Source: Pseudomonadota bacterium (lineage in GTDB: Bacteria; Pseudomonadota; Alphaproteobacteria; Caulobacterales; Caulobacteraceae). Taken from it: a stretch of DNA of 35,341 nt. A program made the position numbers and the translations under genes. Numbering within the stretch: position 1 is the stretch's first letter; each line of letters begins with the position of its first letter. Below the pieces are notes generated by a model. That model had not been told where the DNA came from, did not search any database, and worked only from the letters and a program-made list of their open reading frames with translations. The DNA is taken from assembly GCA_021808285.1 (NCBI GenBank), contig JAKBBV010000028.1, positions 1 to 35,341 of the forward strand, given 5' to 3'. Positions 15,890 to 35,341 of the stretch are shown here, piece by piece.

Positions 15890-15973
15890 GCGTTCGTGGA
15901 CGCCTCGGATCGACCGCCGCCTCGGCCCGGACGGCCGCGGCTGCTTGGAAGCGCGGCTGCTTGGAGGAATGAG

Positions 15974-17580: not shown

Positions 17581-17609
17581 TTGACCCGGTCCATTAGGTG
17601 TATATACAC
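17581..17609 (+). promoter_or_regulatory. Promoter with palindromic operator for the MarR-amidase operon
   Basis: A TTGACC box (17581-17586) is followed at 16 bp by TATACA (17603-17608). The perfect 12-bp palindrome GTGTATATACAC (17598-17609) covers the -10 region. A start site near 17615 would leave about 4 nt before ATG 17619, so the MarR mRNA may be essentially leaderless. The palindrome is a good candidate site for MarR autorepression. Confidence 0.6.
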
Positions 17610-17618
17610 TTTAATTCC

Positions 17619-18098: not shown

Positions 18099-19306
18099 CC
18101 TCCGTTGAGTCCATCGCATCGCTTCGTCACGGCGTGGCGTCCGGGGCGGTCTCCATCTCGGACGTCAAGCGCCGGGTCGCAGACCGCGTGTCCGCTCACA
18201 GCGCTCTTAACGCCTTCATCACGGTCATGATTGGAGACGCGGCCGATGACGCCGATCCGCACCTGCCTCTCGCAGGAATACCTATTGGCGTCAAAGACTT
18301 CTTCGATACGGCCGGGATCCGCACGACTGCGGGCTTTGTTCATTTCGCCAATCGCATTCCCGCTGAGGACGCGGTCCTGGTTCGCAAGCTGCGGGCGGCC
18401 GGCGCCATGCTGGTGGGCAAGACCAACATGCATTGCCTTGGCATGGGCACAACATCGCTCGAGAGCCACTTTGGGCCGGTGCGCAATCCGCTGATGCCCG
18501 ATCACGTCGCCGGCGGTTCCTCCGGTGGGTCCGCCGCCGCGGTCGCCGCGGGACTATGCCTGGCGACGATCGACACCGACGCTGCCGGTTCGGCGCGACT
18601 TCCGGCCGCCTGTTGCGGGGTCGCAGCCTTCAAACCCAGTTTCGGGATGCTGTCGGGAGAGGGCGTTCTAAAGGGAGAGCCGGCTGACCCCGCCATTCTC
18701 AAACTCAGCCACGCGAGCCTCATCGCGCGAGACGCGCACGACGCCGCAGTAGTGTTCATGCTTCTGGCCGACGGCGAGCCTGGAGTGCGAAGGGCGGGTC
18801 GCCGGGTGGGAATAGCGGCGAACGCCATGGGCGACCCATCCGTGAAGGCGGCCTTCGAGGCGAGCCTGCCCGCGCTCCTCGCGCCGGCGGCCTCAACGCG
18901 CGCCTGTCTCATTCCCTTTGACGAGGCGCAATTTGACGTCACGGGCCTCGAAGATGCCCGGAACCGGATTAACGACCAGCTCTTCTCCGAGATTGACCTG
19001 CTGGTCCTACCCACGCTCGCAGGGCCCGTCCCCACCATTGCCGAGGCCCAGCGTATTGGGGAAATGGCGGTCTCCACCGCGAATACTTTTTTTGCGAACT
19101 ATTTTGGTCTGCCGGCGATTGCCATCCCGATCAAGGTTGAGGGCTTTCCGGCTCCCATTTCCGTTCAGATTATCGGCCCCCGAGGCGCTGACCTGGCCGT
19201 GCTCGACTACGCCAAGGCGGTCGAGGCCGCGCTACCCCCGGCGATGACTTTCCCCAGGTTTTGGGAACAGCCCGCTCCGGCCGGCAACGGATCGGCGCCG
19301 CGATAG
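18095..19306 (+). CDS. Amidase-signature family hydrolase
   Basis: A 403-aa amidase-signature enzyme. The triad elements are visible: catalytic Lys K67 in GVKDFFDT, the cis-Ser in AGGSSGGSAAAVAAG (142/143), and the nucleophile S166 in DTDAAGSARLP. The last motif usually reads DTGGS, so the glycine pair is relaxed here to AG. The protein is shorter than the 450-500 aa of many relatives, with a compact middle between residues about 215 and 300. It is co-translated with MarR. The substrate is unknown: an amide, or possibly an allophanate or aryl ester. Confidence 0.88.
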   Translation: MTSVESIASLRHGVASGAVSISDVKRRVADRVSAHSALNAFITVMIGDAADDADPHLPLAGIPIGVKDFFDTAGIRTTAGFVHFANRIPAEDAVLVRKLRAAGAMLVGKTNMHCLGMGTTSLESHFGPVRNPLMPDHVAGGSSGGSAAAVAAGLCLATIDTDAAGSARLPAACCGVAAFKPSFGMLSGEGVLKGEPADPAILKLSHASLIARDAHDAAVVFMLLADGEPGVRRAGRRVGIAANAMGDPSVKAAFEASLPALLAPAASTRACLIPFDEAQFDVTGLEDARNRINDQLFSEIDLLVLPTLAGPVPTIAEAQRIGEMAVSTANTFFANYFGLPAIAIPIKVEGFPAPISVQIIGPRGADLAVLDYAKAVEAALPPAMTFPRFWEQPAPAGNGSAPR

Positions 19307-19445
19307 AGCAAGGCCAGATAGTCCGAATAGGCGTAGTTCCGGCCGCGTCGCCCTACAGCCGACCCCATGCCAATTGGATGAAAATGGATGGACAATAGGC
19401 GGCGTCGACCTCATAGAATCGGGTGTCAACGGATGGCGCAATGGC

Positions 19446-20497
19446 ATGGCGCTCGACACCGCTTCCCTTCGCATCACACCCGAGATCCTGTCGCTGATCG
19501 CCGAGATCGACGAGTTCACGGGCGCCTGGAGGGCGATCGGCCGGATCGCGCCGCAGCGGCTTTCCGGGCTGCGCCGCGTCGCGACAACGAGAGCATCGGC
19601 TCCTCGACGCGCATCGAGGGCGCCCGGCTCAGCGACCGGGAGGTCGAGGCGCTGTTGGCCAACATCCGCATCGGCGCGTTCACCACGCGCGACGAGCAGG
19701 AGGTCGCCGGCTATGCGGCGGTCATGGAGACGGTCTTTAGCGCCTATGACGCCGTCACGCTGACCGAGAACCATATCCGCCAACTCCATCGCGACCTGCT
19801 GGCCCATTCGACCAAGGACGAGCGGCGCCGCGGCTCTTACAAGACACTCTCCAACCACGTCGAAGCCTTCGACGAGGACGGCAAGAGCCTCGGTGTGGTG
19901 TTCGAGACCGCCACGCCCTTCGACACGCCGCCCCGGATGGCCGAGCTGGTCGAATGGGCGGCCGGGAGGGAGAAGGACAAGAGCCTTCACCCATTGCTGG
20001 TCATCGCGGTGTTCGTGGTGGTGTTCCTGGAGATTCACCCCTTTCAGGACGGCAACGGCCGCCTCTCACGCATCCTGACCACGCTGATGCTGCTTCGGGC
20101 CGGCTATGCCTACGTGCCTTACAGCTCGCTGGAGAGCGTGATCGAGCAGAGCAAGGAGGGCTACTACCTGTCCCTGCGGCGGACCCAAGCGACGGTCCGC
20201 ACGGCCGAACCGGATTGGAACCCTTGGCTGGAGTTCTTCCTGCGGGCGTTGCAGCGCCAGAAACAGCGGCTCGAAAGGAAGATGGAGCGCGAGCGGATCA
20301 TGCTCGCCCAGGTGCCGGAAATGTCGGTGATGATCCTGGAGCTGGCGCGCGAGCATGGCCGGGTCACGGTGGCCGAGGCCGTGAGGGTCAGCGGCGCCAG
20401 CCGCAACACGATCAAGGATCATCTGAAGGCGCTGGTCGAGCAAGGACATCTGACCTTGCACGGAGCCGGCCGGGGCGCATGGTATGGGCTTGCCTGA
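19446..20497 (+). pseudogene. fic: Fic family AMP-transferase, interrupted by a single-base frameshift
   Basis: Two overlapping frames together make one Fic protein of about 350 aa. The N-terminal part (from ATG 19446, MALDTASLRITPEIL) is in one frame and the rest in another. The switch is at about 19584-19588, where one base seems missing between GCG ACA and GAG AGC. After it come the inhibitory-helix motif STRIEG, the catalytic HPFQDGNGR (20036-20062) and a C-terminal winged-helix domain ending WYGLA. Fic enzymes transfer AMP to target proteins. The catalytic core is intact, but it has no good start of its own, so the gene is probably dead unless the base is a sequencing error or frameshifting occurs. 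Confidence 0.8.
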
Positions 20498-20643
20498 CAC
20501 GCTTGCATTCGCCGGACGCGCACCGCTCGTCCGGGCTGTCGTCTTGCTGCGCTCCGGCAAGAGAGCGGCTCCATCGGATCGGAACCCGGGCCGCCGCCTC
20601 CGGCGGAAAATCAGGCCTAGCCGGTGTTCAGAGTTCTGTACTG

Positions 20644-20657
20644 AAATTGGCGCGCCC
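20644..20657. repeat. Short imperfect copy of the tRNA-Arg 3' end
   Basis: AAATTGGCGCGCCC here matches 21773-21786 (AAATTGGCGCACCC) at 13 of 14 positions. The second copy spans the CCA end and acceptor arm of tRNA-Arg. The two copies flank the YhaV-PrlF genes. It might be an old attachment-site remnant, but it is short. Confidence 0.3.
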
Positions 20658-20772
20658 CCGTTAGCGATGATGAGAACTACCTCTACGCCATAGCCCCTTG
20701 AATTCGGCCGCGCCCTCTTAATCGCCCCACGCAGACGCCGCCCTTTCCCCTCTTCCCGGCCAGACCTAAGTC

Positions 20773-21255
20773 TCAGGCGAGCGGTCGGTGGGCTGCAAGT
20801 CGAGCGCGCGTCGGCGCCGCCTTGGCCGACGCGAGCAGCGCATCCCAATCGTCGGGTGGGTTGCCCGCCTTCAGCATCTTGGCAAACACCGCATAAGCAT
20901 CCGCGCGGCTGCCATAGGCGCGCTTTGTCTGCTCGTCGTTGACCCAGGCGAGCACGATCACTCTGGCGGTTGAGTTGAAGCGGAAGAACAGCCGGTACTG
21001 CTGGTAGAACTTCGCCCGCCGCCAGTGCTTGCGCCCCGATCCGAGCGTCTCGCCCTGCTCGAAGCGCTTGTGCGCGGGGTCGGCCGGGATGTCCTCGAAC
21101 GCCAGCTTCAGGACCGCCGCGAGCATTTTCGCGTCGCGGCCGGAGCGGTAGTCTTCCGGGTCTTTCTCGCGCGCTCGCTCGACCGCCGCCGTGAGCGCTT
21201 CGAGCTGATCCAGGAACAGCGGGTGCGCGTAGACCTCCCAGCCGCCGACCTTCAC
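20773..21255 (-). CDS. yhaV: YhaV-family toxin of a type II toxin-antitoxin system
   Basis: A 160-aa protein close to the 154-aa E. coli YhaV ribonuclease toxin, a RelE-superfamily mRNA/rRNA cleaving enzyme. Family features are GWEVYAHPLF at the N-terminus, the HWRRAKFYQQYRLFFRF core strand with basic residues, and VIVLAWVNDEQTKRAYGS, followed by a C-terminal NPPDDWDALL segment. The start is GTG at 21255, 9 nt after the antitoxin stop, in the antitoxin-first order usual for this pair. No lesion is seen, so the toxin is probably functional. It lies between a broken fic gene and tRNA-Arg. Confidence 0.93.
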   Translation of the reverse strand: MKVGGWEVYAHPLFLDQLEALTAAVERAREKDPEDYRSGRDAKMLAAVLKLAFEDIPADPAHKRFEQGETLGSGRKHWRRAKFYQQYRLFFRFNSTARVIVLAWVNDEQTKRAYGSRADAYAVFAKMLKAGNPPDDWDALLASAKAAPTRARLAAHRPLA

Positions 21256-21264
21256 GGTCTGCGC

Positions 21265-21561
21265 TCAGAGCGCCGCGTCGAGGTCGATCTCGACGCCGTC
21301 GACCAGCTCTCGGGCACGCTGAACGAGCGCGTCCGGCACGCCCTGTAGGCGCTCCGGCTTTGCAGCGATGTCGCGCTCCAACAGGTCGAGGAAACCGGCG
21401 AGCACCGGATCGTCGCTCTCCTGTTCGGGACGCCGACGGACGACCACCTCCTCGCCGCGCACCTCGTAGGCGAGGGTGTCGCCGCGACGCAGGCCAAGCG
21501 CCTCGCGCACGCCCTTCGGGATCGTGGTCTGAAACCGCTCGGTGACGGAGCTCTGAATCAT
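21265..21561 (-). CDS. prlF: PrlF-family antitoxin (AbrB/SpoVT-type)
   Basis: A 98-aa protein with an N-terminal swapped-hairpin AbrB-like DNA-binding domain (SSVTERFQTTIPKGVREALGL, then GDTLAYEV) and an acidic helical C-terminus expected to neutralise YhaV. ATG 21561 is chosen because GAGAGG precedes it and the domain starts at once; upstream in-frame codons to 21690 are non-coding. PrlF-YhaV complexes normally autorepress, and two inverted repeats lie immediately upstream. Confidence 0.92.
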   Translation of the reverse strand: MIQSSVTERFQTTIPKGVREALGLRRGDTLAYEVRGEEVVVRRRPEQESDDPVLAGFLDLLERDIAAKPERLQGVPDALVQRARELVDGVEIDLDAAL

Positions 21562-21566
21562 AATCG

Positions 21567-21598
21567 CCTCTCGACCTGAGAGGTAATGCAAATGCATT
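21567..21598 (-). promoter_or_regulatory. Two inverted repeats at the prlF-yhaV promoter
   Basis: AATGCA-AA-TGCATT (21585-21598) is a 14-bp inverted repeat and CCTCTC-GACCT-GAGAGG (21567-21583) a second. The second includes the antitoxin ribosome-binding site, so as RNA it could mask translation and as DNA serve as operator. Either fits autoregulation of a toxin-antitoxin operon. Confidence 0.5.
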
Positions 21599-21776
21599 GT
21601 GGAAACAAGTCGAATCGGTCGTGCTCTGGCGTAGGTCCGTATCGAACAGGCGCGCACGGCGGCGCGCTCCGTTGCATTCGGCTGGCTCAACCCCTTCTTA
21701 AAATGAACATCAGGGTTTTAGGGCCGAACCGGCCCAAACCAGATCGCGCTCAGACGTTGATGGTAAAAGAGAAAAT

Positions 21777-21853
21777 TGGCGCACCCGACACGATTCGAAC
21801 GTGTGACCTTTGCCTTCGGAGGGCAACGCTCTATCCAGCTGAGCTACGGGTGC
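21777..21853 (-). tRNA. tRNA-Arg (anticodon CCG)
   Basis: The reverse strand gives a complete 77-nt cloverleaf. The acceptor GCACCCG pairs with CGGGTGC. The D-arm is AGCTCAGCTGGATAGAGC, and the anticodon stem TTGCC/GGCAA holds the loop CTCCGAA with anticodon CCG. The T-arm has GTTCGAATC, and the CCA end is encoded. The anticodon reads CGG arginine codons. Its 3' end faces the toxin-antitoxin and fic genes. Confidence 0.97.
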
Positions 21854-21972
21854 ATGGGCCGTGGCGGGCTTTAGCCGATATTCGGGCCACCGCAAACCGT
21901 CTCCGCCGCACCGATTGCGAGAGTCCGCCGCCTGCCCTGGCGCTCCGACGAAGCCTCGCCGGGCAGGCGCCC

Positions 21973-22815
21973 TTACTGCTTGTGCGCGGTCTGGACGATC
22001 ACCTCGCCGGTCAGGAGGTCCTGGTCGGTGGTGGTCAGGGTCACGTCGTCGGGCGAAATCACCATGGTGAAGACGTCGGACTTCCGGCCGCCGCGCCAGT
22101 CCGTTTCCACATAGTGGCGATCGTCCAGTCTCCGCACCGAGACCTGAGTGTGGCCGGGATCGTTGGTCTGGGCCGCCAGGGCGCCGTTGAACGGGGCGTC
22201 ATAGGTCATGCCTGCGCCGTTGCTCCATTCCAGGCGATCGCCCAGGTCACGAAAACGGTTGAGCTGAAAACCGGACTCGGTGCGGTCGAGCTTCTGGCGC
22301 CGCCAGGTTCCCGACAGCGGCAGGTCGCCCGGGGGCGCGGGCCCGTCGCGGGAGAAAGTGACGCTGAAATTAAGGTCCTCGCCCCCCTTGGGCAGAAGAC
22401 GATAGCGCGACTCGGTCAGGGTCTGGGCGTCCGGGGACAAGGTCCATCGGGTGCGCGCCACCGGACGTCCGCCGCGATAGACCGTCGTCTCCACGACGCC
22501 CGGTCCGATCACCTTGGCCGAAATCGAATCCCCCGGCCCCTGGCCGGAGGCCAAGGGGTGCGGGGCGCCGTCGACCAGCGTCGTCAGACCGCCTCGGTCA
22601 GAGAGGTGAAAGAACTGCGTCGCGCTCACGGTCAGGGTTTCAGGCCGGCCCATCCAGCGCACGGAGGAGAGGTCCGTCACCCAGACCCCATCGATCGGCC
22701 GCGCTTCGGCCAGCCCCGGACCGAGCAGGGCGCAGCCCATAAGCGCCGCGACGGCTGTCCACGGCGGCCAGCGCTCGCCCCGACGTCCTCCACCGTCATT
22801 CCACCGCCCAGACAT
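21973..22815 (-). CDS. Exported protein of unknown function with two similar halves
   Basis: A 280-aa protein with a signal peptide (hydrophobic residues about 20-36, then AEA-R). The mature part appears to hold two related beta-rich units. [23 protein letters not shown] and SPDAQTLT in the first parallel [22 protein letters not shown] and SPDDVTLT in the second, suggesting an internal duplication with a lipocalin-like style. I do not recognise a named family. The start at 22815 has only a weak AGCGGGG upstream. It is divergent from pdxH. Confidence 0.75.
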
Positions 22816-22990
22816 GCCCCGCTACCCACCCGCAAGGATGATGACGCCATCCCGACACCTAAACGGAATTGGCGTGATTTGGTTCAAATGTCCTCGATCG
22901 CAACCCCTCGGCCGCCTCCGGATCCCGTCGCGGAGGTCGCGGCGGGGTCCCGCCGGCGCCGCGGACATGCTAAACCCCTTTCCAGCGCCC

Positions 22991-23656
22991 ATGACCCACG
23001 CCTCCCTGATCCCCCCCTCCCCGGCCGAGGACGACTATCTAGACGCCGTGGCCACGTCCCCGCCTCAACCCCAGATCGAGGGTGAGGACCCTTTCGTCCT
23101 GTTCGCCGAGTGGCTGGAGGCGGCCCAGGCCAAGGAGGTCAACGATCCCAACGCCATGTGCCTCGCCACGGTGGACGCCGAGGGCCTGCCCGACGCGCGC
23201 ATGGTGCTGCTCAAGGGGCTCGATGAGCGGGGTTTCGTCTTTTACACCAATCGCCTCAGCGCCAAGGGGCGCGAGCTGGACGCCCACCCCAAAGCGGCCC
23301 TCAGCTTCCACTGGAAGTCGCTGCGCCGCGCGGTGCGGGTTCGCGGCGAGGTCGAGACCACGACGGACGCGGAGGCCGACGCCTATTTCGCCACTCGCGC
23401 GCGGTCGGCGCGGATCGGCGCCTGGGCCTCGAAGCAGTCGCAGCCTCTGGAAGAGCGCCTGGCCCTGGAAAAGCGGATCGCCGCGGAGGGCGCTCGGTTC
23501 GGCCTGGGCGCCGTGCCCCGACCGCCGCACTGGATCGGCTATCGCGTCCTGCCCCACTCCATCGAGTTCTGGCGCGACCGGCCTTTCCGGCTGCACGAGC
23601 GGCTGGTTTTCGCCCGCACGGCGACAGGCTGGACCCAGGCGCGGCTATATCCTTAG
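22991..23656 (+). CDS. pdxH: Pyridoxamine 5'-phosphate oxidase
   Basis: A 221-aa FMN enzyme that oxidises pyridoxine/pyridoxamine phosphate to pyridoxal 5'-phosphate. Family landmarks are [23 protein letters not shown], the FMN-binding [38 protein letters not shown] region, [15 protein letters not shown]-like phosphate binding, and the C-terminal [11 protein letters not shown]...EFW followed by RLYP. Start 22991 ([11 protein letters not shown]) gives the usual length; ATG 22967 is an alternative, and neither has a clear Shine-Dalgarno. Open frame upstream to 22814 overlaps the divergent gene and is not coding. Confidence 0.95.
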
Positions 23657-23713
23657 GCCGCGACCAGCGGCGCCGTCGCCCGGTCGGACGCGGCCAGAAC
23701 CATGGACCCCTTT

Positions 23714-23727
23714 GCGCGCCGGCGCGC
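23714..23727. repeat. 14-bp perfect palindrome between pdxH and the acyl-CoA synthetase gene
   Basis: GCGCGCCGGCGCGC is self-complementary and follows a CTTT. It could help terminate pdxH or be a regulator site; GC-rich sequence makes chance plausible. Confidence 0.4.
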
Positions 23728-23810
23728 TGAACCTTAAAGATCAGGCGAGCGGATCTCGGGGTCGCGAAAGGCGCCTAAGCGGAAACCCGCGCGGAGGATG
23801 AGGAGACGCC

Positions 23811-25466
<1,656 letters not shown>

Positions 25467-25473
25467 GGGGCGA

Positions 25474-26376
25474 TCAGCCCGCCAGACGATAAACGCTCTC
25501 CAGCGCCGCCTCTCCCTCGGCGACAGCCTCGCCGCGCCGGACGAGCTCGATCAGATGCGCGTGCAAGGAGCGCGCGGCGGCCGGCCAGAGGCGGGAGTCC
25601 ACGCCGGCATAGAGGACCGGGACCATGTCGCGGATATGGAGGACCCCCGCGCCGAGCTGGGCCAGGACCTGCCTCTCGCGCTCGCGCCGGTGCTCGGCAT
25701 AGGCGGCGATGAAGGGGTCGACCTCGCGGATGGGCGGGCCGTGGGTCGGCCACAGAGTGGCGAATCCGCGGCCGCGGATCAGATCGAGGCTGGCGAAATA
25801 ATCGCCCATGTCGCCGTCCGGCGGGGTGATGACGGTGGTCGACCAGCCCATGATGTGGTCGCCGCTGAAGAGCGCGTTTTCCTCCTGCAGGGCATAGCAG
25901 ATATGGTTGGAGGTGTGACCGGGCGTGGGAATCGCCTCCAGGGTCCAGCCCTCACCCGCGATCACGGCCCCGCCGCAAACCGAGATATCGGGGGTAAAGG
26001 CGTCATGGCCGGCCTCGGTCTTCACCTCCTCCACGCCCGCCCCTCCGGCCGCCGAGGGGGAGACGGCGCAGCCATAGACCGGGGCGCCGGTCGCGGCTGA
26101 CAGGGCCCGCGCCAGAGGCGAGTGGTCGGCGTGGTGATGGGTCACGAGGATGTGGCTGACGCGCTCGCCGGCGAGGGCGGCCAGGAGAGCAGCCAGGTGA
26201 TCCTCCATTTCCGGCCCGGGGTCGATCACCGCGACGGCGCCGCGTCCGACGATATAGGTGCCCGTGCCCTTGAAGGTGAAAGGACCGGGATTGGCGGCCG
26301 TGACCCTTCGGATCAGCGGCGAGACCTGATCGCAGCGCCCGTATTCTAGGTCCATCTCGCGAACGAACGGGATCAT
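25474..26376 (-). CDS. Metallo-beta-lactamase-fold hydrolase (LACTB2-like)
   Basis: A 300-aa MBL-fold protein with the metal site HHHADH (H80, H82, D84, H85), PTPGHTSNH, FSGDHIMGWSTT and a final PTHGPP. A C-terminal winged-helix-like tail (from about 235) matches LACTB2-type members, which include nucleases and thioester hydrolases. GGAGG sits 7 nt upstream of ATG 26376; the frame continues to 26409 without support. Adjacent to an acyl-CoA ligase, but convergent, so not an operon. The substrate is open. Confidence 0.88.
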   Translation of the reverse strand: MIPFVREMDLEYGRCDQVSPLIRRVTAANPGPFTFKGTGTYIVGRGAVAVIDPGPEMEDHLAALLAALAGERVSHILVTHHHADHSPLARALSAATGAPVYGCAVSPSAAGGAGVEEVKTEAGHDAFTPDISVCGGAVIAGEGWTLEAIPTPGHTSNHICYALQEENALFSGDHIMGWSTTVITPPDGDMGDYFASLDLIRGRGFATLWPTHGPPIREVDPFIAAYAEHRRERERQVLAQLGAGVLHIRDMVPVLYAGVDSRLWPAAARSLHAHLIELVRRGEAVAEGEAALESVYRLAG

Positions 26377-26522
26377 CGACGTCCTCCCCGGACACAAAGA
26401 CGGACACAAAAATGCGACGCAACCGCGTCCAAATGAGGCGATCGGGTCGAGATTGGGTTGTCAGCAGCGCGCCAAGTCCCGAAGATCGGCCAGAACTTTA
26501 GGATTGCCTAGGAGTGATAAGG

Positions 26523-26828
26523 ATGAAATTCGCCCTCAGCATCGCCGCCGGCGCCCTGCTCTTGGCCGCCGCCGCCCAGGCCCAGCCGGTCAATGGCGCG
26601 CCCAACAGCCTGACAGTGCCGACGACGGCCACGTCGAGCCCCGCCGTTCCGCCCCAGGTCCCCGGCCCGGCGGGCGACAAGAAGAAGGACCCCGTGATCT
26701 GCAAGCATCAGGAGGAGATCGGGTCACGCCTGGGCGGCAAGAGCATCTGCATGCGAAAGTCGCAATGGGCGCAGCAGGCGTATGACGCTCAGCACGACAC
26801 CCAGCTGTTCCAGCAGCAGCCGCACTGA
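26523..26828 (+). CDS. Small exported protein with CKxxxExGSRL motif
   Basis: A 101-aa protein with a signal peptide ending AAAQA-Q (about residue 20). A Pro/Thr-rich stretch leads to a conserved-looking motif with two cysteines, C60 and C76 (ICKHQEEIGSRLGG, then CMRKSQW), and a Gln-rich tail. Similar small secreted proteins are common in Caulobacterales and Sphingomonadales; none has a function I can name. ATG 26523 follows AGGAG; GTG at 26514 is an alternative. It is divergent from the MBL gene. Confidence 0.75.
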   Translation: MKFALSIAAGALLLAAAAQAQPVNGAPNSLTVPTTATSSPAVPPQVPGPAGDKKKDPVICKHQEEIGSRLGGKSICMRKSQWAQQAYDAQHDTQLFQQQPH

Positions 26829-26867
26829 GCGGCTGAACCGGGCGGCGCGTCCTACCCTGTCAGGCGA

Positions 26868-27269
26868 TCACTCGCCCAGAACCACGCTGAGGTCGTAGCC
26901 GGCCGCGGCGCCGCGGCGTCGCAGGTCATCGTGGTCGTCACGGTCAGCGCGGCCGAGCGCCCAGGTCAGGATCGAGCGCGTGCCCGATCGGCAAAAGGCC
27001 AGGGTCTTGCCGCCAGCGTCGCAGGCGGCGCGCATGGCATCCACCTGGGCGGCTTGCGGCCGTCCGGCGACCGGGATGGCGATATAACCGAGCCCAGCGG
27101 CGCGGGCGGCGGCCTCGATCTGCGCCCCGGCCGGCTGATCCGGCCCCTCCCCATCGGGGCGGTTGTTGATGATCAGGGCGATGCCGAGCGCCCTGGCCGT
27201 CTCGATATCCTCTGGGCGGATCTGGGGCGAGACCCAGAAAGCGTCGGTCACCTGGCGAAAGTCGGGCAT
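26868..27269 (-). CDS. DUF442/TIGR01244-type phosphatase-like or sulfurtransferase domain protein
   Basis: A 133-aa protein of the family often fused to rhodanese or MBL domains (Blh-like). The catalytic-type Cys is C93 in AFCRSGTRS. The spacing is one residue shorter than in the classic CX5R tyrosine phosphatase loop, as is usual for this family. N-terminal VTDAFWVSPQIRPEDI and INNRPDGEG also fit. AAGGAG lies 5 nt upstream of ATG 27269. A role in sulfide or persulfide metabolism is possible. It lies upstream of nothing in the same direction; the next minus-strand gene is 32 nt before it. Confidence 0.85.
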   Translation of the reverse strand: MPDFRQVTDAFWVSPQIRPEDIETARALGIALIINNRPDGEGPDQPAGAQIEAAARAAGLGYIAIPVAGRPQAAQVDAMRAACDAGGKTLAFCRSGTRSILTWALGRADRDDHDDLRRRGAAAGYDLSVVLGE

Positions 27270-27301
27270 GCGTCTCCTTGTCCTGCTGGAAGCGAGGGGG
27301 G

Positions 27302-27835
27302 CTACTGGATTCGGCGGGCGCGAATGGCCTCCTGGCCGTCCACCTTGAGGAAGAAGCTGCCGAGCGTGCCCCTTTTGATCAGCACGGACGAGCCGGGATG
27401 GGGGTCGTGGGACAGCTCGAAGTCGTCCGTCTGGTCCCACACCGCGCCGTCATCGAGGGTCAGCAGCCAATGGCCGTCCTGATCGTGGCCGACGCGAGCG
27501 ACCTTGGCGGTGATCTGGTCCTCACCCTCACCTTTTTCGCCGCGGTCGAAGATGTCGAGGGACGGCAGGGTGAGCCCGAAGGTCTGACGGCGAACCGCCT
27601 TTCTCTGTGACCTGTCGATTGTCATGAGATCGCCAGCGGACTGGGCCGCCTGCATGGCCGCCACGGTCTTGTCGTAGCAGGCGAGGCGCTGGGCATCGTC
27701 GGCGATCGCTCGGCAATCCGTGACCGCTTTCACCGCCGCGGCGGTGGCCGCAGGCCGGGGCGCAGCCCGCGCCGTTCCGGCGCATACCGTCGCCATGAGC
27801 CCCATCAGGACCAGGCTGTGGAAGTTGGACCTCAT
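27302..27835 (-). CDS. Exported protein of unknown function with CxxI-RLACYD motif
   Basis: A 177-aa protein with a signal peptide ending TARA-A (about residue 24). The mature N-terminus has DCRAIADDAQRLACYD with C41 and C53, a motif shared by many small envelope proteins. A predicted beta-rich C-terminal half follows (WLLTLDDGAVWDQTDDF and SSVLIKRGTLGSFFLKVDG). AAAGG precedes ATG 27835. It probably shares a transcript with the DUF442-type gene 32 nt downstream. Function unknown. Confidence 0.78.
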   Translation of the reverse strand: MRSNFHSLVLMGLMATVCAGTARAAPRPAATAAAVKAVTDCRAIADDAQRLACYDKTVAAMQAAQSAGDLMTIDRSQRKAVRRQTFGLTLPSLDIFDRGEKGEGEDQITAKVARVGHDQDGHWLLTLDDGAVWDQTDDFELSHDPHPGSSVLIKRGTLGSFFLKVDGQEAIRARRIQ

Positions 27836-27950
27836 GCGGCGCCTTTCTGGGTTCGGAGGGGGCGGCCCCGTCGTCGTCCCCCTCAATCTAGCCCAATCGC
27901 GGCGACATTGGCGCGGACTATTTCTGCGCTGTGCGCTCTAGTTATATGTC

Positions 27951-27996
27951 CGTAATTTTCGCAACTGTCGCGCTTTATTTCGTAATGTGTCGTAAT
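27951..27996. repeat. Three CGTAAT repeats phased at 30 and 10 bp
   Basis: CGTAAT starts at 27951, 27981 and 27991, spaced three and one helical turns, so all three lie on one DNA face. They lie about 250-290 nt upstream of the receptor start. They may be regulator-binding half-sites. Confidence 0.4.
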
Positions 27997-28054
27997 ATAT
28001 GCTCCCGTTTGCAAGTATTGGGCATCCTAATTCAATAGCGTAACTTGCTATATC

Positions 28055-28072
28055 TGTGACTGAAAAGTGACA
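28055..28072. promoter_or_regulatory. PhoB-box-like direct repeat upstream of the first receptor
   Basis: TGTGACTGAAAAGTGACA contains GTGAC twice with an 11-bp period. On the reverse strand it reads ATGTCAC-TTTT-CAGTCAC, similar to the PHO box (CTGTCAT-N4-CTGTCAY). A near copy (16 of 18) is placed likewise before the second receptor. It lies 188 nt before the start codon. Confidence 0.5.
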
Positions 28073-28242
28073 TATGCGGTCTGATGTTGGCGAGAAGCTG
28101 TCCTTCTCGTTGACCATACTTCTTACACGTCGATATCTACGGCGAGTCGGGGTCGTCGACCCTGAATTGCCATGGCTACCGCGCCGCCACCCCGCCAGGG
28201 TCTGAAAAGGCGTCGCGGACCGACAATCGGAGGGATTAACAC

Positions 28243-31200
28243 TTGAGCAACCCAATCCGGCGCAGCCGCCTGCTGGCGTCCTCAATGATCACCGGCATCG
28301 CCGTTGCCGCCATGGGCGCGAGCGGCGCCTTTGCCGCCGACGCTCCCGCATCGTCTCGCTCCGCGCCCATGAACACCACGGGCGGCGAGTCCGCCGTCGC
28401 TGCGCCGACGGGCGGCGCGACGCAGGTGCAGGAGTTCGTTGTGACCGGCTCGCGCATCCCGCAGCCGAACCTGTCCAGCATCAGCCCGGTCACCGCGGTG
28501 AACAGCCAGGAACTGAAGCTCGAAGGCACGACCCGGGTCGAGGACCTGATCAACCAGCTGCCGCAAGTCACCGCCAGCCAGGGCGGCTTCCTCTCCAATG
28601 GAGCCACCGGGACGGCGACGCTCGACCTTCGCGGCCTCGGCCCCAAGCGCAACGTTGTCCTGATCGACGGGACGCGCCTTGGTCCGGGCGACCCGTTTGA
28701 TCCGGTGGCCGACATCAACTTCATTCCCGCGCCGCTGATCGACCGCGTCGACGTTCTGACCGGCGGGGCCTCGGCGGTGTACGGCGCCGACGCCGTGGCC
28801 GGCGTCACCAACTTCATCATGAAGAAGAACTTCACCGGCCTGGAGATGACGGCGAACTTCGCCGGCTATGAGCACTCCAACGGCGACACCAAGTCGCAGG
28901 CGGCCAACAACGCCCTCGGCTTCACCCCGCCCACGGGAACGGTCTTCGATGGCGGCACGGTGGACATCTCGGCCATCTTCGGCGCCAACAGCCCCGACGG
29001 TAAGGGGAATGTCGAAGGCTATGTGGAGTACCGGCACATCGATCCGGTGTCCGAGGCCACGCGCGACTACAGCAACTGCACGATCAAGGTGACGGGCCAG
29101 AACTTCGCCTGCGGCGGCTCAGCCACGGCTGCCAACGCCACCCTGCTCACCTACGACGCCAACTTCAACCCGACGGGCCAATATCAGGTGTCGCCCACGG
29201 GCCATGGAGCCTTGAACCCGTTCACGGGCGCAGGAAACCAACTCTACAACTACGCGCCGCTGAACTACTTCCAGCGTGACGACCGCCGTTATTCGGGCGG
29301 ATTCTTCGCCCATTACGACGTGACGCCGCACATCACCGCCTACGCCAACTTCATGTTCATGGACGACTACTCCACAGCCCAGATCGCCGGCTCCGGCGAC
29401 TTCGCCCAGACGGCGTCGATCCCTTGTAACAACCCGCTGCTCTCCGCCCAGGAAGTCAATGCCCTGTGCGTGACGCCGGGCTATTCCACGGCGGCGGCCC
29501 CGACCGTGGGCACGGCGACCAACGACTTCATCCTGCGCCGCAATATTGAGGGCGGTCCGCGCGTCAGCGTGCTGCAGCACACCGACTATCGCGCCCAGGT
29601 GGGATTGAAGGGCGATATCGGCGGCGCCTGGCATTTTGACGTCTATGGCCAGTTCTACGACTCCCTGTTCCAGAGCCAGGCCGAGGGCTATTTCTCCAAC
29701 TCCCGGATCCAGAACGCCCTCAACGCGGTCCCAGGCTCGACCCCAGGATCGGCCGTCTGCGCCAATGCCACGGCCGTGGCCGCCGGGTGCGTGCCCTACA
29801 ACCCGTTCACGCCGGGCGGCGTCACGCCGGCCCAGCTGGCCTATCTCCAAGTGCCGGGAGAAGAGACGGGCTCGACCTCCGAGGCAGTGGTCGAGGGTGA
29901 TCTGACCGGCGACCTTGGCGTCTACGGGATCAAGAGCCCCTGGGCCAAGGAAGGCGTCGGCGTGTCCTTCGGCGCCGACTATCGGCGTGAGACCTTGAAC
30001 CTCCTGCCCGACGCCGAACTCCAGGCCGGCGACCTTGCCGGCTCGGGCAGCGCAACGCTCCCGGTCAACGGCGCGTTCGACGTCAAGGAGGTCTACGGCG
30101 AAGCCCGCATCCCGATCGTGAACGACATGCCGTTCATGAAGGAATTGACGGCTGACGTGGGTTACCGCTTCTCCGACTACAGCGACGTCGGCACCACCAG
30201 CACCTACAAGATCAGCGCCGAGTGGGCGATCAACGACGACATCCGGATCCGCGGCGGCTTCAACCGCGCCGTGCGGGCGCCGAACGTCGACGAGCTCTAC
30301 TCGGCCCAGACCGTGGGACTGGACGGCAACACCGACCCCTGCGCCGGCGCGACGCCGACCTTCACCGCAGCCGAATGCGCCCGCACCGGGGTCTCCGCGG
30401 CGCAGTATGGCAACATCAGCGCCAACCCGGCCAACCAGTATAACGGCCTTCTGGGCGGCAACCCCAACCTGAAGCCGGAAACAGCCGACACCTATACGAT
30501 CGGCGCGGTGTTCACGCCCGTGGATCTGGTGCGCGGGCTGAGCTTCTCGGTAGACTACTTCAACATCAAGATCACCAACGTGATCCAGAGCTATGGAGCC
30601 GACAGCATCCTGCAGCAGTGCGGGCTGACGGGCGACACCACCTATTGCAGCCTGATCCACCGCATGCCGGGAACCGGGTCGCTGTGGCTGAGCCCCACGG
30701 GCTACGTCACCGACACCCTGCAGAACCTGGGCTTCCTGCAGACCGCCGGTCTCGACTTCACCCTGGACTACCACTTCCGGTTCGCCGACTTCGGCCTTCC
30801 GGACTGGGGCGGACTGACCCTGAACTTCCTCGGCACCTACACCAACAACCTGACCGAACAGGGTGCGCCCGGCACCTCTCCGGTGCAGTGCGCCGGCCGC
30901 TATGGCGACATCTGCGGCGGCACGCCGGATCAGGGGGTGCCCGAGCCGTTCTTCAAGGCCAAGACGCGTCTGACGTGGGAAACCCCGGTGGACGGGCTGA
31001 GCGCCTCGATCGACTGGCGCTACATCGGTGGGGTCAACATCGATACCGGCATCACCGGGACGGCCGACTCGAACATCCCCTCCTACAGCTACTTCGATCT
31101 CGCCGCTCAGTGGAGGGTCAAGGACAAGTACACGTTCAGCGTCGGCGTGAACAACATCTTCGACATCCAGCCGCCGATCATCGGCTCCGCCGAGCTCCCC

Positions 31201-31287
31201 AGCGTCGTCGGCAACGGCAACACCTTCCCGCAGATTTACGATCCGCTGGGACGCTACATGTTCGCCCAGGTCACGGCGGACTTCTGA
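28243..31287 (+). CDS. TonB-dependent outer-membrane receptor, copy 1
   Basis: A 1014-aa outer-membrane transporter. The signal peptide (to about residue 31) is followed by an exposed linker with a TonB-box-like QEFVVTGSRI and a plug domain (about 70-190, including DLRGLGPKRNVVLIDGTR and GGASAVYGADAVAGVTNF). A long 22-strand-type barrel ends in aromatic Phe (FAQVTADF). Several extracellular segments carry cysteine pairs. The start is TTG 28243, with GGAGGG 8 nt upstream; the same TTG arrangement is seen in the downstream paralogue. The substrate is unknown; large receptors of this type in Caulobacterales import siderophores, vitamins or oligosaccharides. Confidence 0.94.
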   Translation: MSNPIRRSRLLASSMITGIAVAAMGASGAFAADAPASSRSAPMNTTGGESAVAAPTGGATQVQEFVVTGSRIPQPNLSSISPVTAVNSQELKLEGTTRVEDLINQLPQVTASQGGFLSNGATGTATLDLRGLGPKRNVVLIDGTRLGPGDPFDPVADINFIPAPLIDRVDVLTGGASAVYGADAVAGVTNFIMKKNFTGLEMTANFAGYEHSNGDTKSQAANNALGFTPPTGTVFDGGTVDISAIFGANSPDGKGNVEGYVEYRHIDPVSEATRDYSNCTIKVTGQNFACGGSATAANATLLTYDANFNPTGQYQVSPTGHGALNPFTGAGNQLYNYAPLNYFQRDDRRYSGGFFAHYDVTPHITAYANFMFMDDYSTAQIAGSGDFAQTASIPCNNPLLSAQEVNALCVTPGYSTAAAPTVGTATNDFILRRNIEGGPRVSVLQHTDYRAQVGLKGDIGGAWHFDVYGQFYDSLFQSQAEGYFSNSRIQNALNAVPGSTPGSAVCANATAVAAGCVPYNPFTPGGVTPAQLAYLQVPGEETGSTSEAVVEGDLTGDLGVYGIKSPWAKEGVGVSFGADYRRETLNLLPDAELQAGDLAGSGSATLPVNGAFDVKEVYGEARIPIVNDMPFMKELTADVGYRFSDYSDVGTTSTYKISAEWAINDDIRIRGGFNRAVRAPNVDELYSAQTVGLDGNTDPCAGATPTFTAAECARTGVSAAQYGNISANPANQYNGLLGGNPNLKPETADTYTIGAVFTPVDLVRGLSFSVDYFNIKITNVIQSYGADSILQQCGLTGDTTYCSLIHRMPGTGSLWLSPTGYVTDTLQNLGFLQTAGLDFTLDYHFRFADFGLPDWGGLTLNFLGTYTNNLTEQGAPGTSPVQCAGRYGDICGGTPDQGVPEPFFKAKTRLTWETPVDGLSASIDWRYIGGVNIDTGITGTADSNIPSYSYFDLAAQWRVKDKYTFSVGVNNIFDIQPPIIGSAELPSVVGNGNTFPQIYDPLGRYMFAQVTADF

Positions 31288-31318
31288 CACCTTCCTCGCC
31301 AGCCTTCCAAGCCGGCGC

Positions 31319-31444
31319 GGGCGGCGGACTTCGGTCCGCCGCCCTTTTCTTTGTTCAGGACGACCCTGGCGGCGAACTTCGGTCCGGCCCCTTTTTGCCC
31401 AGGGCGACCCTGGCGGCGGACTTCGGTCCGGCGCCCCATCTTTT
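31319..31444 (+). terminator. Three-unit UUCG-loop terminator array after receptor 1
   Basis: Three successive hairpins share a TTCG loop. Unit 1 (31319-31352) is a perfect 11-bp stem, GGGCGGCGGAC with GTCCGCCGCCC, followed by TTTTCTTT. Unit 2 (about 31366-31397) has mismatches but ends CTTTTT. Unit 3 (31412-31444) has one mismatch and ends in TTTT. Loop spacing is 48 and 44 bp, and the linkers (CAGGACGACCCT type) are related, so the units arose by tandem duplication. Unit 1 is a textbook intrinsic terminator. Confidence 0.85.
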
Positions 31445-31941
31445 GCCGGACGGGGCCCCGGCGGCGGATGTCTTTAGAAGGCGCTCGCCCCACGGACCGC
31501 CTCGCCCCATCCGCCGCTCCATCCCGGGGCGAATCCCGCTCCCTCCGTAGTCGCGCGCGACGTGAGCGTGCGGGGCGGAATCAAACCCGTCCCTGCCGAT
31601 CGGCGGCCGAGGCCGCCCTTGCCCCGTAGAGCTTACCCGCGCCGGGCGAGCGTGCGCGGGTGCGGCGTCGAGCGATGATCGCTATCGCCTCTCCTCACGG
31701 GCCTGGGCTAGGCGCAGTAGGACGCACAAGAGCCCGCCGAACGCCAAGGCGCTTCGCCCCCTGGACGGCCCGGTCCGCCCCGGGCGCGTTCCCACGTCGC
31801 CGCTGCAACAGGCCGGCAAGACCACAGTGCTGGATGCGCCTGCGGCGAGGCGCCTGGAAAGGGGCGCGCAAGGCGTCGCGCGAGTCCCTTGAGGGCGAAA
31901 GCGACGCTTCCTTTGCGACACGCTCTCCGCATGGCGTCGGA
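31445..31941. other. Gene-free gap between the two receptor genes
   Basis: No frame reads as a plausible protein on either strand and no RNA gene is recognised. The beginning holds GC-rich sequence resembling a worn continuation of the terminator repeat (CCCCGGCGGCGGAT near 31460). Confidence 0.5.
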
Positions 31942-31959
31942 TGTGACCGAAAGGTGACA
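31942..31959. promoter_or_regulatory. PhoB-box-like direct repeat upstream of the second receptor
   Basis: TGTGACCGAAAGGTGACA matches the element before receptor 1 at 16 of 18 positions, with GTGAC again repeated at 11-bp period. It is 195 nt before the TTG start, against 188 nt in copy 1. Flanking leader sequence is otherwise mostly dissimilar, which argues for selection on this site. Confidence 0.55.
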
Positions 31960-32136
31960 CTTCCGCCGTGAAACTGTCTTCATTGGGCGAAACGGGGTTG
32001 CGGTTTCCTTCCGTCCGGATACTTCGTGGCTTTCCCGTTTCGGGCGGTTACGGGGATGAGTGCGCGTGAAACCCGATTCGATCGCGCCTCATCCTGTCGC
32101 AACCTCTCGATCTGAGTCACAATTCGGAGGCAATCC

Positions 32137-35133
32137 TTGACCCAATCCCTTTGGCGCAATCGCCTGCTGACCTCATCCATGATCAGCGGCGTGGCCATGG
32201 CCGCACTCAGCTCAGGCGTGGCTTTTGCTCAGTCTGCTCCCATGAACACGACAGGCGGTTCCTCCGCTGTGGCGGCGCCATCCGCCGGCGCGACCCAGGT
32301 TCAGGAGTTCGTGGTCACCGGTTCGCGTATCCCGCAGCCGAACCTTTCCAGCCTCAGCCCGGTCACGGCGGTGAACAGCCAGGAACTGAAGCTTGAAGGC
32401 ACCACCCGGGTCGAGGACCTGATCAACCAGCTGCCGTCGGTTCTGCCGAGCCAAGGCGCCATGCTCTCCAACGGCGCCACCGGCACGGCGACCATCGACC
32501 TTCGCGGACTGCGCCCGAAGCGGAACCTCGTGCTGATCGACGGCACCCGCCTGGGCGCCGGCGACCCCGGCGATCCCGTGGCCGACGTCAACTTCATTCC
32601 GACCCCCCTGGTGGAGCGTGTGGACGTCCTCACGGGCGGCGCTTCGGCGGTGTACGGCGCTGACGCCGTGGCCGGCGTGACCAACTTCATCATGAAGAAG
32701 AACTTCACCGGTCTGGAGCTCACGGCCAATTTCGCAGGCTATGAGCACAGCAATGGCGACGCCAAGTCGCAAGCGGCCAACAATGCGCTCAATTATAATC
32801 CGCCCACGGGCACCTTCTTCGGCGGCGGCACGGTCAATATTTCGGCGATTTTCGGCGCCAATAGCCCCGATGGAAAGGGCAATGTCGAAGGTTACCTCGA
32901 ATACCAGCACTACGACCCGGTCACTCAGGCCGCCTTCGACTACAGCAACTGCACCATCAAGGTGAAGGGCCAGAACTTCGTCTGCGCCGGTTCGGCGACC
33001 AACCGCTACACGACGATCCTGACCTACGACGCCAATTTCAACTCGACAGGCGCCTTTCAGGTTGCTCCGACCGGCCAGGGCCAGCTCAATCCCTACACCG
33101 GGGCTCCCAACCAGCTCTACAACTACGCGCCCTACAACTATTTCCAGCGGTCGGACCGGCGCTATGAGGGCGGCTTCTTCGCCCACTATGACGTGACGCC
33201 GCACCTCACGGCCTACGCCAACTTCATGTTCATGGACGACAAGACCGAGGCGCAGATCGCCCCTTCAGGCGACTTCGGCCAGACGGCGTCCATTCCCTGT
33301 AACAACCCCTTCCTGTCGTCCGCAGAAGTCACCGCGCTTTGCGTGACCCCCGGCTATTCGAATGCCGCCACCCCCACCCAGGGCACGGCGACCAACGACT
33401 TCCTGCTGCGGCGGAACGTCGAAGGCGGCGACCGGATCCAGGTCATCGAGCACACCGACTATCGGGCCCAAGTCGGCCTGAAGGGGGATATCGACTCCAA
33501 CTGGCACTTCGACGCCTATGGACAGTACTATGACGCCATCCTCTCCAGCGTCGCCGAGGGTTATATCTCCAACAGCCGCCTGGTGAACGCGCTCGACGCC
33601 GTCCCCGGCCCCAACGGGACCGCGGTCTGCGCCAATCCGACGGCCGTGGCCGCCGGCTGCGTGCCCTACAACCCCTTCACCCCGGGCGGCGTGACCCCGG
33701 CCCAGCTCAACTACCTGCAGGAGCCGGGCATCATCACCGGCAACACGAGCGAAGCGATCGTCGAGGCCGACATCAACGGCGACCTCGGCGCCTACGGGAT
33801 CAAGAGCCCCTGGGCCAAGGAAGGCGTGGGCGTGTCCTTCGGCGCCGACTATCGCCGCGAGACCCTCAACTCCCTGCCCGACGCGGCCTACCAGTCCAAC
33901 GACCTGGGCGGCGGCGGCGGCAAGGTTCTTCCGGTGGCCGGCGCCTTCAGCGTCAAGGAAATCTACGGCGAAGCCCGGATCCCGATCGTCAACGACATGC
34001 CTTTCATGAAGGAATTGACGGCTGACGTGGGTTACCGCTTCTCCGACTATTCGGACGTTGGAACGACCAACACCTACAAGATCAACGGCGAGTGGGCCAT
34101 CAACGACGACATCCGTATCCGGGGCGGCTTCAACCGCGCCGTCCGGGCGCCGAACGTGGTCGAGCTCTACTCCACCCAGTCGGTGGCGCTCGACGGCAAC
34201 TTCGACCCCTGCGCCACCTCCACTCCGGCCTACACCCAGGCCCAGTGCGCGCGGACGGGGGTCTCGGCCGCCCAGTACGGCAATATCAGCGCCAACCCGG
34301 CGGCCCAGTATAACGGCCTCGTCGGCGGCAACCCGAACCTGAAGCCGGAAACCGCCGACACCTACACCATCGGCGCGGTCATCACGCCGGTGGATCTGGT
34401 CAAGGGGATGAGCCTGTCGGTCGACTACTTCAACATCAACATCACCAATGTGATCCAGTCGATCGGGTTCCAGAACATCCTCACCGACTGCGCGACCCAG
34501 GATCAGTACTGCAACCTGATTCAGCGCCAGCCGGGCACCGGTTCACTCTGGCTGAGCCCGAACGGCTATGTGGTGGACACGCTCCAGAACCTGGGCTTCC
34601 TGAAGACCAACGCTCTGGACTTCACCTTCGACTATCACTTCCGCTTCTCCGACTTCAATCTGCCGGATTGGGGCGGCCTGACCCTGAACTTCCTCGGCAC
34701 CTACACCAACGAGTATGCGACCCAGGCTTCGAGCACGACGCCGGTGTTGCAGTGCGCTGGCAAGTATGGCGTGACCTGCGGCATCCCGCAGCCCTTCTTC
34801 AAGGGCAAGACGCGTCTGACCTGGCAGACCCCGGTGGATGGTCTCGAGGCCTCACTCGACTGGCGCTATATTGGCGGAGTGAACCTGGACAATGGAGCGA
34901 CCGGCACCGCCGACTCGCACATCCCGTCCTACAGCTACTTCGACCTCTCGGCCCTGTGGCGGGTGAAGGACAAGTACACGTTCAGCATCGGCGTGAACAA
35001 CATCTTCGATATCCAGCCTCCGGTGATCGGCGCCAACGAGCTGCTCGGCACCTTCGGGAACGGCAACACCTTCCCGCAGGTCTACGACGCCCTCGGCCGT
35101 TACCTGTTCGCCCAGGTCACCGCCGACTTCTGA
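32137..35133 (+). CDS. TonB-dependent outer-membrane receptor, copy 2
   Basis: A 998-aa paralogue of the preceding receptor, closely similar along the plug and barrel. Differences are in the signal peptide (MTQSLWRNRLLTSSMISG) and several likely extracellular loops, such as the Cys-containing segment around 34480-34520. The C-terminus is FAQVTADF. TTG 32137 follows GGAGGCAATCC. Stretches of near-identical nucleotides, for example 34003-34049, exactly match copy 1 (30133-30179), suggesting recent duplication or gene conversion. It probably transports a related but distinct ligand, perhaps under the same control. Confidence 0.94.
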   Translation: MTQSLWRNRLLTSSMISGVAMAALSSGVAFAQSAPMNTTGGSSAVAAPSAGATQVQEFVVTGSRIPQPNLSSLSPVTAVNSQELKLEGTTRVEDLINQLPSVLPSQGAMLSNGATGTATIDLRGLRPKRNLVLIDGTRLGAGDPGDPVADVNFIPTPLVERVDVLTGGASAVYGADAVAGVTNFIMKKNFTGLELTANFAGYEHSNGDAKSQAANNALNYNPPTGTFFGGGTVNISAIFGANSPDGKGNVEGYLEYQHYDPVTQAAFDYSNCTIKVKGQNFVCAGSATNRYTTILTYDANFNSTGAFQVAPTGQGQLNPYTGAPNQLYNYAPYNYFQRSDRRYEGGFFAHYDVTPHLTAYANFMFMDDKTEAQIAPSGDFGQTASIPCNNPFLSSAEVTALCVTPGYSNAATPTQGTATNDFLLRRNVEGGDRIQVIEHTDYRAQVGLKGDIDSNWHFDAYGQYYDAILSSVAEGYISNSRLVNALDAVPGPNGTAVCANPTAVAAGCVPYNPFTPGGVTPAQLNYLQEPGIITGNTSEAIVEADINGDLGAYGIKSPWAKEGVGVSFGADYRRETLNSLPDAAYQSNDLGGGGGKVLPVAGAFSVKEIYGEARIPIVNDMPFMKELTADVGYRFSDYSDVGTTNTYKINGEWAINDDIRIRGGFNRAVRAPNVVELYSTQSVALDGNFDPCATSTPAYTQAQCARTGVSAAQYGNISANPAAQYNGLVGGNPNLKPETADTYTIGAVITPVDLVKGMSLSVDYFNINITNVIQSIGFQNILTDCATQDQYCNLIQRQPGTGSLWLSPNGYVVDTLQNLGFLKTNALDFTFDYHFRFSDFNLPDWGGLTLNFLGTYTNEYATQASSTTPVLQCAGKYGVTCGIPQPFFKGKTRLTWQTPVDGLEASLDWRYIGGVNLDNGATGTADSHIPSYSYFDLSALWRVKDKYTFSIGVNNIFDIQPPVIGANELLGTFGNGNTFPQVYDALGRYLFAQVTADF

Positions 35134-35166
35134 TCTGGAAATTACCTCCGTCCTTGCGGCGGGCCC

Positions 35167-35291
35167 GGGCGGCGGATTTCGGTCCGCCGCCCTTTCTTTT
35201 GTCTAAGACGACTCTGGCGGCGGATTTCGGTCCGCCGCCCTTTCTTTTGTCTAAGACGACTCTGGCGGCGGATTTCGGTCCGCCGCCCTTT
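35167..35291 (+). terminator. Three-unit 48-bp-period terminator array after receptor 2
   Basis: Hairpins with a TTCG loop lie at 35167-35192, 35216-35239 and 35264-35287. The stems are 10-11 bp (GGCGGCGGAT with GTCCGCCGCC, a T-G pair closing the loop). The first two are followed by TTTCTTTT and the third by a shortened TTTGTC. The first two 48-bp units are identical in sequence. Unit and linker (CTAAGACGACTCT) are homologous to the array after receptor 1. Confidence 0.88.
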
Positions 35292-35341
35292 GTCTGAGCG
35301 CTGCGGGTGAGGCGCACGCCATTTGTGCCCTATTTGCGACA

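Follow-up and report, generated by a model that had tools for sequence, protein, structure and literature searches.

Tandem copies of a UUCG-loop terminator unit behind two adjacent TonB-dependent receptor genes of a Caulobacteraceae genome

At the right end of a contig from a member of the Caulobacteraceae, two tandem TonB-dependent receptor genes (R1 and R2) are each followed by several copies of one short unit built around a GC-rich hairpin with a TTCG loop. The locus raises the question of why a terminator should be present in tandem copies: because the copies serve the receptors, because the unit is a spreading repeat, or because one terminator was multiplied where it stood. The stretch of DNA analyzed here (the window) comprises 35,341 nucleotides (contig JAKBBV010000028.1, assembly GCA_021808285.1, positions 1 to 35,341 of the forward strand); it is contig C9 of a genome of 2.9 Mb in 105 contigs (the source genome), and a second contig of that genome, C105, is used alongside it. 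We consider it quite probable that a single intrinsic terminator was duplicated in place, that the first unit of each array ends most transcripts, and that the remaining units reflect local repeat turnover.

Anatomy and folding of the two arrays

The 48-bp unit is repeated head to tail in about three copies 3' of R1 (array A) and 3' of R2 (array B), and its parts are, in order, the stem GGCGGCGGAY, the TTCG loop, the stem GTCCGCCGCC, a T-tract and a linker with a GACGACYCT end. Tandem Repeats Finder reported array A at 31320-31447 and 31320-31468 (periods: 44 and 48; matches: 83% and 74%) and array B at 35168-35291 (period: 48; copies: 2.6; matches: 100%; score: 248), and all other rows of that run scored ≤46. 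The proteins encoded by R1 and R2 are 79% identical. The features are listed below, with the evidence for each; ORF stands for open reading frame.

28243..31287, + strand: receptor gene R1, 1014 aa, TTG start per ORF tool (ORF; Pfam Plug PF07715 and TonB_dep_Rec_b-barrel PF00593 above cut-off)
31320-31367, + strand: array A unit 1 (A1), 48 bp (read from sequence)
31319..31344, + strand: hairpin of A1, unbroken 11-bp stem and TTCG loop, followed by the T-tract (sequence, terminator scan, folding)
31345..31367, + strand: T-tract and linker of A1, ending in GACGACCCT (sequence)
31368..31411, + strand: array A unit 2 (A2), 44 bp, stem broken by substitutions and a deletion (sequence, Tandem Repeats Finder, folding)
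31412..31459, + strand: array A unit 3 (A3), 48 bp, one mismatch in the stem, poor T-tract (sequence, Tandem Repeats Finder, folding)
32137..35133, + strand: receptor gene R2, 998 aa, TTG start per ORF tool (ORF; Plug and beta-barrel domains above Pfam cut-offs)
35168..35215, + strand: array B unit 1 (B1), linker GACGACTCT (sequence, Tandem Repeats Finder, terminator scan, folding)
35216..35263, + strand: array B unit 2 (B2), identical to B1 over 48 bp (sequence, Tandem Repeats Finder, folding)
35264..35291, + strand: array B unit 3 (B3), same stem, shortened T-tract, shorter and different tail TTTGTCTGAG (sequence, Tandem Repeats Finder, folding)

The A1 hairpin lies 31 nt from the stop codon of R1, and the B1 hairpin (35167-35192; stem unbroken, U-G closing pair) lies 33 nt from that of R2. 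Every array B stem closes with a U-G rather than a C-G pair, the array B hairpins are spaced by 23 and 24 bases, and A3 is followed by the 9-base beginning of a fourth unit at 31460-31468. The anatomy given in the original prediction, made by a model from the sequence (intrinsic terminators in tandem 48-bp units, with B1 identical to B2), was confirmed by Tandem Repeats Finder and by the sequence itself; its description of array A as degenerating, with one period shortened to 44, also holds, since A2 is 44 bp long and broken and A3 is impaired.

Single units were folded and each was compared with 200 shuffles. None of the shuffles was as stable as A1 (-26.9 kcal/mol), B1 (-24.4 kcal/mol), B2 and B3 (-20.7 kcal/mol each) or A3 (-18.8 kcal/mol, with one stem mismatch). 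A2 reached -8.3 kcal/mol, and 134 of the 200 shuffles were equally stable; because its fold is no better than that of shuffled sequence, A2 is no longer a terminator hairpin. Unbroken stems are present in four of the six hairpins (A1, B1, B2 and B3), and the same four were listed as a hairpin with a T-run in a terminator scan of 15342-35341, from which A2 and A3 were absent (the scan found 20 sites against a shuffle mean of 12.3, which taken alone is weak evidence). A T-rich tract directly 3' of the stem is present in A1, B1 and B2, weaker in B3 and poor in A3. The stable GC-rich hairpin downstream of a gene that defines an intrinsic terminator is present in A1, B1, B2 and B3, absent from A2 and impaired in A3. 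As predicted from fold and sequence, there is one good terminator after R1 and there are three after R2, so that the earlier description of three terminators after each gene stands for array B and falls for array A, in which a single good unit is joined by a broken and an impaired one.

When the arrays were folded whole, none of 200 shuffles folded as well as array B (z: -5.8), and 16 of 200 folded as well as array A, which is thus not clearly more stable than shuffled sequence. We do not take the long nested fold of array B as a structure in its own right: near-palindromic units can pair with one another, and during transcription the units would be expected to fold singly. An Rfam search of 28000-35341 gave no family over its gathering score; the best match, BjrC80 (23.7 bits, E-value 0.25, gathering score 80), is below threshold and was not accepted.

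The contig end and the history of the arrays

The window ends 50 bp past array B, and its end recurs on C105.

35154..35341, + strand: contig-end region overlapping C105 (sequence comparison)

The last 126 bases of the window (35216-35341) are identical to reversed C105 from its base 15, and the 90 bases 35154-35243 are identical to the first 90 bases of reversed C105. Between the same flanks, array B thus has two units on C105 and three on C9. Either cells with two and cells with three units were mixed in the sampled population or the assembler faced an ambiguity, and three is not a firm unit number for array B. C105 continues the window with a third tandem receptor gene (R3) followed by a single terminator of the same stem (the slice folded for it, -16.1 kcal/mol, was without part of the stem, and this energy is not comparable with the others), then by genes for a TPR/2OG-Fe(II) oxygenase protein and for a TPR/sulfotransferase protein. 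The gene order, judged from ORFs, is matched on contig C56 of the related genome G001, which carries two receptors with one terminator each; the contig edge truncates the first of the two.

DNA similarity between R1 and R2 (28249-31436 versus 32139-35288, 78%) begins near the start codon, extends over the array and breaks off at its end, so that the array may possibly also have been a substrate for the recombination that duplicated the receptor, as had been suggested from the sequence. Aligned with each other, arrays A and B agree at 104 of 121 bases, which none of 1000 shuffles equaled, and the linker alone agrees at 10 of 12 (equaled by 7 of 1000). The stretches between stop codon and array and those past the array show no R1/R2 similarity beyond that of shuffles (612 and 243 of 1000 as good, respectively). 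The linker, on few bases, is better kept than the third codon positions, at which identity between R1 and R2 is only 64%. The linker/stem junction is identical in A and B; the first duplication of the unit therefore probably preceded the separation of R1 and R2 or was passed between them. The identity of B1 and B2 and the U-G closing pair in all B units, again features of the sequence, point to later homogenization within array B. The long alignments of R3 with R1 and with R2 reach as far as the first terminator and stop in its T-tract.

Trees were built to see whether R1 and R2 were duplicated before or after the split from G001. A protein tree of 17 rows, from which three rows of the genus were left out (G005, as well as G015 and G013b, in both of which the longest ORF selected was not the receptor frame), did not separate the two possibilities, and the topologies of three codon-position trees (6 sequences, 753 columns) disagreed. 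Vestiges of a second unit were searched for by aligning the two linkers and unit B1 to five downstream tails, with 500 shuffles each. No convincing vestige was found in the tails of the first G001 receptor, of R3, after A3 or after B3 (the closest approach, linker B versus the tail after B3, was equaled by 11 of 500 shuffles). The tail of the second G001 receptor did match both linkers (0 and 2 of 500 as good) and was nevertheless rejected, the match covering the T-tract part and not GACGACYCT.

Probable in-place duplication of one terminator

To put the arrays beside a base rate, a strict terminator was defined as an unbroken stem of ≥8 pairs (G-T allowed) with 6 G-C pairs and ≥5 T in the next 10 bases. 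The window holds six strict terminators with two tandem pairs, and C105 holds four with one tandem pair. No tandem pair was present in the other samples: 290,928 sampled bases of the source genome (5 strict terminators), 400,000 bases of another genome of the family (13), 12 of the source genome's 18 other receptor places (1), 13 of the 16 other receptor places of G001 (1), contig C56 of G001 (2) and the named loci L020-L055 (24). Tandem terminators of this strength are rare in these samples, and strong intrinsic terminators as such are sparse in both sampled genomes.

Receptor 3' ends were then collected from 54 sources, namely the window, C105, G001 C56, the 36 named loci L020-L055 and 15 loci of the genus (L019 was omitted, being on the same contig as L018). 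Receptor ORFs with >300 bits and ≥120 bases after the stop codon were selected, and one duplicate 3' end was dropped. The 40 distinct ends, among them those of R1, R2 and R3 of the source genome, comprise 24 with a single hairpin and T-rich tail, 12 without a hairpin, two (L026 and L071) with a second, unlike hairpin at least 80 bases further on, and two, both in the window, with three. In this count the three hairpins of R1 are unit 1, unit 3 and another just past unit 3, unit 2 not being counted. At least three of the 12 ends without a hairpin belong to ORFs that have no receptor-like end (the first ORF of L020, L033 and L034), and L083 has 123 bases downstream. By a lax definition, under which some T-tracts are weak, 13 of 15 ends of the same genus outside the source genome have at least one hairpin, which would set this receptor subfamily apart, given the few strict terminators in the sampled source genome. 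A core GGCGGCGGA...TCCGCCGCC is common to several relatives with other loops (GAAA, GCGA, CAAAA and GCAG), and the ortholog of R3 in G001 has one hairpin with the same stem core and a CTCG loop. One copy is thus the commonest state among the ends examined; a single terminator appears to be common after this receptor subfamily, with a loop that is free to change.

In the favored reading, each array would be an ordinary Rho-independent terminator copied in tandem in place. RNA polymerase leaving a receptor gene would form the first GC-rich hairpin 31-33 nt past the stop codon and halt on the T-tract, the gene-proximal unit doing most of the termination. The extra copies would have arisen by replication slippage or unequal recombination of the 48-bp segment that comprises stem, T-tract and downstream linker. 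Duplication would have begun once, before R1 and R2 separated, or have been carried from one to the other by gene conversion, after which the array A copies decayed and array B was recently re-homogenized or re-expanded; this last step is proposed because B1 equals B2. The extra copies would be mostly neutral; the most they would offer is a minor safeguard against transcription running on into the next receptor gene. Two observations agree with duplication in place: the only intact unit of array A is the gene-proximal one, and the identity of B1 and B2 next to a B3 with a different tail, together with the two-unit form on C105, is what a tandem repeat with recent turnover should look like. Since a single copy is the usual state in the relatives examined, the arrays have the look of a common repeat formed by local slippage rather than of a novel sort of element. 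If so, they would illustrate cleanly how, in nature, an intrinsic terminator is multiplied where it stands and later erodes while the copy nearest the gene is retained.

Several points weigh against duplication without selection. No stem of array B is broken, an outcome equally expected if several terminators were under selection. The linker is common to A and B despite the 64% third-position identity and asks for constraint or recent exchange. Since strong terminators are sparse, slips at two of the few would be unlikely by chance, unless one event was copied. Finally, hairpin clusters are common in PMC8355165, and several hairpins may be useful more often than assumed here.

Alternative explanations and known systems

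The alternative that survives best, although we regard it as unlikely, is that the copies are kept by selection, either as serial terminators that insulate three head-to-tail receptors or as stacked 3' hairpins that shield the mRNA from exonucleases. Because R1-R3 stand head to tail, read-through would matter, and array B retains its three unbroken stems. PMC8355165 reports that hairpins within 15 bases of each other act jointly in termination and cites a higher efficiency for the pair of tandem hairpins that follows gyrA in M. smegmatis; PMC11696848 associates strong terminators with higher abundance of the upstream transcript. However, the gaps between the array B hairpins exceed the 15-base limit given in PMC8355165, unit 2 of array A has been lost and so has most of its unit 3, R3 and both G001 receptors have one terminator each in the same arrangement, a two-unit form of array B is present in the same assembly, and the high abundance of receptor transcripts was an assumption of the original prediction. 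The need for very tight insulation proposed there is accordingly weakened, by the decay of A2 and A3 and by the single terminators at R3 and at most of those relatives that have any, and it retains the same low probability as part of the selective explanation.

It is much less probable that the third unit of array B is a product of assembly, the copy number having been misjudged by a short-read assembler near a contig end. C9 and C105 do disagree at array B, B1 and B2 do not differ at any of their 48 bp, and a contig of a congener is titled k141, which indicates k-mer assembly (the assembler used for the source genome may differ). On the other side, the 124-bp array B would fit into a common read length, and array A cannot be such a product, as its units have diverged. 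Assemblies can break or miscount at arrays of this kind.

We give a slightly smaller chance still to a variable-number terminator rheostat, in which the number of units in a cell (one, two or three) would set read-through between successive receptor genes and slippage would tune the ratio of receptors in the population. If copy number did vary among cells and alter read-through, the array would provide a terminator-based way to vary surface receptors.

The notion of a self-expanding or mobile palindromic repeat family, akin to repetitive extragenic palindromic (REP) sequences and bacterial interspersed mosaic elements (BIME), is close to refuted. In its favor are the palindromic stem in tandem copies and the presence of two arrays and one single copy in the source genome. 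DNA searches of that genome with array A or B placed the unit only on C9 and C105 (with 40 of 91 preliminary candidates scored in one search and 14 of 21 in another), so that the many dispersed genomic copies typical of REP/BIME were not found, and every copy that was found stands at the 3' end of homologous genes. The pattern GCGGNNTTCGGNCCGC gave nine matches in the source genome, seven in the receptor cluster and one each on C14 and C102, against five for the reversed-pattern control; within these searches the stem, as a terminator, appears confined to the receptor cluster. Among 60 other genomes, DNA search gave at least one short match in nine (best E-value: 6.6e-7), and these matches are single and short, several being lone terminators. 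A two-stem tandem pattern, which demands perfect cores and misses decayed arrays such as array A, matched in four of 299 genomes of the family: the source genome (three sites, two on C9 and one on C105), G011, G024 and G161 (one site each). The last three have no T-tract directly 3' of the first stem half, and the reversed control gave ten matches in nine of the same 299 genomes, a rate that puts them at chance level; among the 299, a convincing tandem form is limited to the source genome. Collections of plasmids and phages gave no match to array B. The unit has the character of a tandem repeat of local origin (head-to-tail units, a fixed period apart from the 44 of one A unit, no copies found elsewhere in the source genome), and the self-expanding family put forward in the original prediction is not supported by these searches. 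That prediction had itself named a unit occurring nowhere else, together with transcripts that all stop at unit 1, as the mark of local slippage of a normal terminator; within the searches made here, the first of these two signs was found.

The arrays can be set beside four known systems. With UUCG-tetraloop intrinsic terminators they share the GC-rich stem, the C(UUCG)G or U(UUCG)G loop, the T-tract and a position soon after the stop codon; in the examined set these terminators are commonly one per gene, whereas here a tandem period of 48 bp includes the linker. Known double terminators (rrnB T1-T2) usually consist of unlike hairpins. Variable-number tandem repeats likewise have head-to-tail units, here of 48 bp with two identical and with two or three copies in one assembly, but the present units hold a likely terminator and the difference in copy number lies between two contigs of one assembly. 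REP/BIME palindromes also flank genes on the 3' side in several copies, but they are dispersed, and the arrays were found, in the searches of the source genome, in one gene cluster only. As in the tandem or clustered terminators of PMC8355165, in which two-thirds of the predicted termination units consist of clustered short hairpins, more than one hairpin follows the gene and termination could add up; the arrays differ in being copies of one unit, one of them broken, and array B, with its wider spacing, is not a cluster by the distance used there (<15 bases). A limited literature search on tandem, UUCG or Caulobacter terminators led to the hairpin clusters of PMC8355165 and otherwise, in part, to no paper that combined all the subjects sought; a search of this extent is no evidence that repeated copies of a single terminator have gone undescribed.

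Other genes in the window were noted in passing. A PrlF/YhaV toxin-antitoxin pair (20773-21690, - strand; PF15937 and PF11663) adjoins a tRNA-Arg (ccg) gene (21777-21853, - strand). A Fic-domain protein with a winged-helix-like stretch at its C-terminal side is encoded at 19388-20497 (+ strand), and a gene for an extracytoplasmic function (ECF)-type sigma factor, with Pfam sigma-70 regions 2 and 4, is located at 12711-13304 (+ strand).

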